DNA of 64,000 nucleotides. It comes from Verrucomicrobiota bacterium (lineage in GTDB: Bacteria > Verrucomicrobiota > Verrucomicrobiia > Limisphaerales > VHDF01). The position numbers and the translations under genes were made by a program. Under the pieces are notes generated by a model, which had not been told where the DNA came from, searched no databases, and saw only the letters and a list, made by a program, of their open reading frames with translations. The stretch lies in NCBI GenBank assembly GCA_016871495.1, contig VHDF01000007.1, positions 1 through 64,000 of the forward strand, given 5' to 3'. Shown here piece after piece: positions 29,210 through 32,373 of the stretch (positions are counted from its first letter, which is position 1; every line of letters starts with the position of its first letter).

Positions 29210-30175
29210 TCACGGTTTCGAGTCGGCCGCCGGCGCGGGCTGCAAGCTGCCAGGAATTTTGGCTCGGAAGAGACGGTTGCTGGCGCCCAAATCCTCGGGC
29301 AGGAAGTAGGCGAACTCGCCCTTGATGGAGAATCCTTCGCGTCCGAGCTCCAATTCCTGAACGGGACGCAAGGGGTGGGCCTGCTTTCGCGCCGTGGATT
29401 CCAGGAAATCTTCGAACACCATGAGCAAGCTTTTGGGTTCGAGCGCGGACGGATCGCCTCCTTTGCGCAATCCCACGGCGTGCAATCTGCCCCGCAGAAA
29501 TTTCCAGTCCTGCACCGCCAAGCCGGCTTGGGACGGGGCGCTGGCGTCGAAGCCGAGTTCGAGCGGCGCCAAATCGGCCGCGGTCAGTATGCGCTGAAGC
29601 ACACCTTGAAAATTCCACACGAAGACGCGTTGCGTATCCCAGCTCGCCCCGAGGAGGAGTTTTCGGGTTTCCAAGACCGCCAGCGCCCCAATGTGATCGT
29701 CCACCGGGAAAGTGACTTCCGGACGCGCGAAGCCATTCGTTCTCAGTGAGGCCACGCGATAGGCATGGATTTGCGAGGGGCCGGCGCGTGTGCTGGTCGA
29801 AAGCGGCACCCACAGAATGCCTCTCGAAATCTGGAATCCCCCGGGGTGATCCAGGATCTGTTCCCCCGTGGAAGCGGCCTTGCGCGTCAGATCCCAACTG
29901 TCCCAATCGGCGCGTCCCGGACCCGTCCGCAGGAGGAGGGCGCGGCGCGGTGTGACATCGTCGCGGCGGGCGGTGACGAAAAGGTGGGGTCCGGACCAGT
30001 CGATGCCTTGTGTGTGGGCGCGAGCGGGAACACCTCGAAGAGTCAGGGGGGGCAGTGGAGTGACGGCGGAATCCAGTGTTTGACCGCGCAAGCCTGCAGA
30101 TTCGCTCAACCAGACCGCCAGGACTCCCAGTACGATCCGGGTGGAAATCGTTCGGAAAAATCCACGAAGACTCAT
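29210..30175 (-). CDS. Secreted protein, possibly DUF6454-like
   Basis: This 321-residue protein has signal peptide MSLRGFFRTISTRIVLGVLA ending near SAGLRG. The body has HTQGIDWSGPHLFVTARRDD, LDHPGGFQISRGILWVPLST, HIGALAVLETRKLLLGASWD and VQDWKFLRGRLHAVGL, repeated strand patterns suggesting a beta-propeller-like lectin or esterase fold. The H-T-Q-G-I-D-W motif recalls DUF6454, but I cannot confirm that without a profile search. Function is unknown. It ends beside a family C fragment. Confidence 0.6.
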   Translation of the reverse strand: MSLRGFFRTISTRIVLGVLAVWLSESAGLRGQTLDSAVTPLPPLTLRGVPARAHTQGIDWSGPHLFVTARRDDVTPRRALLLRTGPGRADWDSWDLTRKAASTGEQILDHPGGFQISRGILWVPLSTSTRAGPSQIHAYRVASLRTNGFARPEVTFPVDDHIGALAVLETRKLLLGASWDTQRVFVWNFQGVLQRILTAADLAPLELGFDASAPSQAGLAVQDWKFLRGRLHAVGLRKGGDPSALEPKSLLMVFEDFLESTARKQAHPLRPVQELELGREGFSIKGEFAYFLPEDLGASNRLFRAKIPGSLQPAPAADSKP

Positions 30176-30310
30176 GACAGGCTCTCCGAGGCTTGGTTGA
30201 CGGCGACGACCGGAGCGCGGCGTTGACGCCGGTTCAGCACTGGGCGACGCCAGAACAACCGCTTGCTGGTGTGCTTGCCCACGACGAAGCAGCGTAAACG
30301 CCGCGTTCCG

Positions 30311-30417
30311 AGTTGGAAGATGTTGTTCCGCGGACCACGCCTCAAGGATACGTTTTCGTGCAACCAGGGCGCGGTTTGACCAGACGGGAAAATCTCAGTC
30401 GCGAAACAAGGATGAAG
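30311..30417 (-). repeat. Dispersed repeat E, copy 1
   Basis: Read on the minus strand: TCATCCTTGTTTCGCG, then AACCGCGCCCTGGTTGCACG, AAAA and CCTTGAGGCGTGGTCCG. The same series occurs on the plus strand at 32838-32952. It ends 8 bases from the stop codon of the SelW-like gene. No target duplication is assigned. Confidence 0.65.
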
Positions 30418-30425
30418 ATTCCGGG

Positions 30426-30671
30426 CTAAGCGGACCCCAACTTGGATCGAACGGCTTTCAGGATGGCGTCCGGTTGCGGGAATTTTCCGGTTTGGAGTTT
30501 GGAATAGATGATTTCTCCGTTCACCGAGACTTCGAACGCTCCGCCACCTGAGGGGACGAGTTTGAGCGAGGCGATCTGTTGTTTGAATTTGAGCAGTTTT
30601 TCCGTCAGACCGACGGCATGAGGCTCGTAGTTTCAAGCCGTGCAATATTCGATTTGGATGTTCAGGCTCAT
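30426..30671 (-). CDS. selW: SelW/Rdx-family selenoprotein with in-frame UGA (Sec)
   Basis: This 81-residue protein starts at ATG (MSLNIQIEYCTA), has TGA as codon 13 (30633-30635) and ends at TAG (30426-30428). If TGA is selenocysteine the active site is EYC-T-A-U-NY, the C-x-x-U redox motif of SelW/Rdx thioredoxin-like proteins. The rest fits the family throughout: LKLVPSGGGAFEVSVNGEII, YSKLQTGKFPQPDAILKAV. The frame stays open for 68 codons after the TGA. A hairpin with a GGUCU loop follows the TGA at SECIS spacing, and tRNA-Sec is at 400-497. In-frame ATGs up to 30716 are alternative starts. Likely role: thiol/selenol redox protein; partner unknown. Confidence 0.9.
30602..30635 (-). promoter_or_regulatory. 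Bacterial SECIS-type hairpin after the UGA codon
   Basis: On the minus strand, 21 nt after the UGA, CCGUC-GGUCU-GACGG forms a perfect 5-bp stem with a GGUCU loop (plus coordinates 30602-30616). The SelB-binding apical loop of E. coli fdhF SECIS also carries GGUCU, about 18 nt after its UGA. The spacing here is in the accepted range. It lies inside the coding sequence, as bacterial SECIS elements do. SelB binding is inferred. Confidence 0.8.
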
Positions 30672-30800
30672 GGCGTCGGAAAACATCTGCGAATCCGCGG
30701 CCATGATCAAGCCCATGAGAACCTAAATCCGCGCGTAAGAATTCCGACGGGGTCGGGAAAGGTGGTTCCCGCGGTTGAAAGATGCGCGGTTTTAGCCCGG

Positions 30801-30930
30801 ATAATTCATACTGAGCTTGAATCCGCGACAGTGAGCCGCGTGAGGGCACGCGGCCTACAATCGCGCCTGCCTCTTTGTTTGTAGGCCCGGTGCCCTCACC
30901 GGGCGTCCCTTGCATGAAATATGCGGGTTA
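30801..30930 (+). repeat. Dispersed palindromic repeat D, copy 1
   Basis: Arms GTGAGGGCACGCGGCCTACA (30840-30859) and TGTAGGCCCGGTGCCCTCAC (30880-30899) form a 20-bp imperfect stem around a 20-base loop. Flanking sequence is also shared with the copy at 32703-32833 (TGAATCCGCGACAGTGAGCC; TGCATGAAATATG). The region from 30931 to 31077 holds nothing assignable. Confidence 0.75.

Positions 30931-31077: not shown

Positions 31078-32373
<1,296 letters not shown>

Follow-up and report, generated by a model that had tools for sequence, protein, structure and literature searches.

The window, by which we mean the whole stretch of 64,000 nt analysed here, comes from a Verrucomicrobiota genome (5.06 Mb, 97 % complete) and carries on its minus strand a selW-like gene (30426–30671) predicted to encode an 81-residue protein of the Rdx family, with selenocysteine (Sec) as residue 13 in the motif CTAU (CxxU). 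Read from 30671 to 30426, the gene is MSLNIQIEYCTA-UGA-NYEPHAVGLTEKLLKFKQQIASLKLVPSGGGAFEVSVNGEIIYSKLQTGKFPQPDAILKAVRSKLGSA-TAG and begins with the start MSL that is common to its relatives. The in-frame UGA, the putative Sec codon (30633–30635, minus strand), has MSLNIQIEYCTA before it and NYEPHAVGLTEKLLKF... after it, and 68 sense codons separate it from the TAG at 30428–30426; the coordinates, frame, sequence, codon count and stop codon of the preliminary description were all exact on re-reading. The upstream neighbour is eno (enolase; 31078–32367, minus strand; TIGR01060, 665 bits), which lies outside the Sec system. A 247-aa ORF (30172–30915, minus strand) overlaps selW in another frame, and a tRNA-Sec gene (selC, anticodon UCA) is found at 400–497 on the minus strand.

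The selW-like gene and its product

With the UGA read as a residue, the selW product matches the Rdx profile PF10262 at 77.5 bits (E=9e-22; cut-off 22.6), residues 4–75 aligning with profile positions 1–73 of 74, and the NCBIfam model TIGR02174 (CXXU_selWTH) at 67.2 bits (cut-off 34.2), which bears out the SelW/Rdx assignment made earlier; the UGA occupies the second redox position of the C-x-x-U motif. A genome-wide search returned a single Rdx gene in the source genome, holding one TGA. The preliminary description expected a standard gene caller to miss this gene or to truncate it at the 5′ end, an expectation that needs a small correction, as a naive caller might instead choose the 247-aa ORF that overlaps it.

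An AlphaFold model of the product (pLDDT 88) places a strand at residues 3–10, the CTAU motif at residues 10–13 and a helix at residues 16–29, with C10 and U13 in the loop that links the first strand to the first helix. The best PDB matches of the model are SelW-related, and the product is predicted to adopt the thioredoxin-like Rdx fold (TM 0.92 to 2fa8). The bacterial Rdx structures 2fa8, 3dex and 2p0g share this fold (TM 0.85–0.92, about 34–39 % identity) but are not reported in the structure matches as Sec proteins, whereas the corresponding site here is a UGA. Mammalian SELENOW, which has a CxxU motif as selW does here, belongs to the same fold family, and its mouse structure 2npb scores lower against the model (TM 0.71). 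The two differ in the place of the SECIS element, which lies in the 3′ UTR in eukaryotic SELENOW and directly after the UGA in the bacterial gene.

The SECIS hairpin and the reading of the UGA

The GGUCU hairpin that had been proposed at SECIS distance was recovered at 30602–30616 (minus strand) as CCGUC-GGUCU-GACGG. It lies 16 nt downstream of the UGA, with 21 nt up to its apical loop, and all 22 Sec genes of the order have retained it. Its stem of 5 bp, its GGUCU loop and its 21-nt distance were compared with the limits given in PMC13188914. On its own, such a hairpin is weak evidence because a generic SECIS-like form is found after 7.6 % of all the TGA triplets there are in the window, and a generic SECIS score was dropped as sole evidence for this reason. 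When the stem is required to have 5 bp, the loop to read [GA]GU[CU]U and the distance to be right, only 1 of the 1729 TGA triplets in the window qualifies, namely that of selW itself. The free energy of the minimal 15-nt hairpin is −6.1 kcal/mol, which falls short of the −7.5 kcal/mol cut-off of the published bSECIS model; the 42 nt after the UGA fold at −11.7 kcal/mol, so that a value beyond the cut-off depends on flanking bases. An Rfam scan of the selW region returned no SECIS family and one chance match only.

In an alignment of the 22 Sec genes, all 110 pair cells of the hairpin are standard, three of the five pairs have varied on both sides in a compensatory manner, and the pairing signal is gone when the partner columns are shifted as a control. 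Among 20 core sequences, the third-position entropy of the five hairpin codons is zero, the lowest third-position variation among the 59 windows of five codons; the codons further downstream average 1.38 bits. Where Gly is replaced by Ser within the hairpin, the codons are AGT TTG (once AGT CTG) and the loop still conforms to [GA]GU[CU]U.

The order was sampled with 116 genomes, the source genome included. An Rdx gene is present in 22 of these, and in 21 a copy has TGA at the same codon (22 loci in all). Two homologues (L033 and L034) have TGC at exactly the UGA codon, which is the alignment of the site with Cys that the preliminary description had proposed to look for, and both of these Cys genes lack the hairpin. 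Matches to selA above the cut-off were found in 19 of the 21 genomes with a TGA-containing selW, compared with 39 of the 116 overall (Fisher p=3.2e-9); the two TGA-selW genomes without a selA match are 79 % and 66 % complete. One of the two Cys-selW genomes, G017, is without selA. Genome G035 holds the Cys form L033 together with a divergent Sec-form SelW (L036). A phylum-wide sample of 388 genomes yielded 8 Sec-type genes, counting the one in the window, and 40 genes with no internal stop. Further Sec forms occur in named genomes of uncultured Verrucomicrobia/Pedosphaera, Acidobacteria and a Peptococcaceae bacterium, and in Bacillaceae such as Litchfieldia salsa and Salsuginibacillus kocurii.

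These comparisons bear on three other readings of the UGA. It might be a true stop, the real product being either a 12-residue peptide or the 247-aa ORF, whose frame is indeed open in the window. That ORF, however, has no Pfam or NCBIfam match, and of the 21 other Sec loci 20 have stops in its frame, as do both Cys loci, so that we judge it spurious; the column entropy after the UGA (0.71, 0.42 and 1.39 at codon positions 1, 2 and 3) follows the pattern expected of a coding frame and tracks the SelW frame. On this comparative frame test we consider the true-stop reading already refuted, and its residual probability is negligible. Hardly any credence is left, likewise, to a Cys-type SelW gene in which TGC has changed to TGA through decay or a sequencing error. 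The two codons are one base apart and two order-mates do have TGC, but the same TGA, together with the hairpin, is common to independently assembled genomes of the order and the TGA recurs in other phyla, the sequence after the UGA is under purifying selection and the SECIS covaries; the kept TGA and hairpin have already refuted this reading. The preliminary description had also allowed for homologues that end at the UGA; homologues instead continue past it into the same protein sequence, both in other phyla and in 21 of the 116 genomes.

The third reading is that the UGA is read through as another residue, by near-cognate Trp or Cys insertion, independently of any Sec machinery. Occasional UGA readthrough is known in bacteria, which speaks for this reading indirectly. 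Against it stand the strong co-occurrence with selA, the tRNA-Sec gene in the window, the conserved SECIS and the fact that homologues without the hairpin have Cys at the site, which together make readthrough very improbable. A chance ORF is excluded as an explanation of selW, mainly because of its conservation in relatives. From these sequence comparisons, we conclude that the gene at 30426–30671 is almost certainly a genuine bacterial Rdx/SelW selenoprotein gene with Sec at the UGA.

Sec machinery and other selenoprotein genes of the source genome

The tRNA-Sec gene noted in the preliminary description was detected by ARAGORN and by Rfam (RF01852, 60.9 bits; gathering threshold 47). The check for selA, selB and selD that the same description had proposed found all three in the source genome: selA (478 bits) and selB (268 bits) adjoin on contig C24, and SelD (300 bits), which has Cys in its active site, is fused to Ndh in a protein of 755 aa whose C-terminal half it forms. 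The encoded SelB ends in the winged-helix domains SelB-wing_2 and SelB-wing_3, this C-terminal region being the SECIS-binding part of the protein. A further match to the selB profile, in a frame with two TGA triplets on contig C1, was rejected as ordinary EF-Tu, the match overrunning the EF-Tu stop. The Ndh-SelD Cys fusion (L010/L045, contig C44) differs from the stand-alone Sec-SelD found by selW in many order-mates; the fusion type is mentioned in PMC2398784.

Other selenoprotein genes of the source genome were sampled by family. A formate dehydrogenase gene (fdhA; L081, contig C113) has TGA at the canonical Sec site (NCSRA-U-HSP); after this TGA comes a 7-bp stem whose loop is GGUCU, as in selW. 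A Prx-like protein (DW-U-PHC) and a peroxiredoxin (TGG-U-TAEC) are likewise encoded by UGA genes (L078 on C30 and L079 on C126), and a SECIS-like hairpin follows the UGA in each of the three genes. The AhpD-like family PF02627 had no match in the source genome.

By analogy with the established bacterial Sec system, SelB with GTP and Sec-tRNA would bind the GGUCU apical loop and bring Sec to the UGA under SECIS control, giving an 81-residue thioredoxin-like protein. The Cys and Sec of its CxxU motif may form a reversible selenenylsulfide, and the product would probably act as a small thiol/selenol oxidoreductase in glutathione- or thioredoxin-linked redox defence.

Genomic linkage of selW with selD, selA and selB

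In the source genome, selW sits after eno and lacks the linkage to selD, selA and selB seen in some relatives. Of the 22 Sec loci in the order, 8 have selD at most 1.5 kb from selW, selA is also close in 7 of these 8 selD-linked genomes, and selB comes next in several of the linked loci that were read far enough. In five Bacillaceae, selW adjoins selA; four of these have a divergent selD on the other side and one has selB, and the gene order differs from that of the verrucomicrobial loci. The selW-selA-selD cluster is carried, for example, by the cultured species Mesobacillus subterraneus. The linked loci are L015 and L026–L032 (order-mates), L092, and L096 and L098–L101 (Bacillaceae); the SelD proteins of these loci are for the most part Sec forms as well (CAGUASK, KAGUGCK). 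A SelW tree built on 75 columns resolves too poorly to place the operon linkage as ancestral or not. In two order-mates, a transglutaminase-like gene (PF01841) follows selA (L039:2108–3049 and L043:1556–2515, both minus strand), and in L039 it stands directly before selB; a transglut_core gene has been described in the Sec operon of one planctomycete, an operon structure that was reported as unique to that genome (PMC4807772).

The literature searched held no mention of a selW-selD-selA linkage. The linkage is most simply read as a transferable Sec cassette that carries a single cargo gene, for which a Sec cassette with FdhA as its only selenoprotein gene offers a precedent (PMC5029168). Because selW adjoins selD in eight verrucomicrobial loci and selA in five Bacillaceae, one may also speculate, although we regard it as unlikely, that SelW-like Sec proteins are not only clients but part of the Sec machinery. 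They might, for example, serve SelD as a selenol/selenide carrier or reductase, or act as redox sensors of the selenium supply.

Proteins of this type are already familiar from bacteria. SelW-like proteins with CxxU are listed among the known selenoprotein families of prokaryotes (PMC13188914, PMC1794560) and were the most abundant selenoprotein family in both the Sargasso Sea data (48 genes; PMC1088965) and the GOS data (427 genes; PMC2398784), and selW genes overlooked by annotation have been reported before in Epsilonproteobacteria (PMC4607533). Since SelW-like proteins rank with the most common selenoproteins of bacteria, the gene described here is a further member of a known family (PF10262), with which it shares the CxxU motif, the size and the in-gene bacterial SECIS; it differs in its verrucomicrobial lineage, in which relatives encode the gene beside selD-selA-selB. 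The finding corrects an annotation and shows that Sec users in which SelW is a recurrent selenoprotein form a group within this verrucomicrobial order, and the repeated position of selW beside selD, selA or selB in two phyla provides a testable hint to the function of SelW in bacteria.
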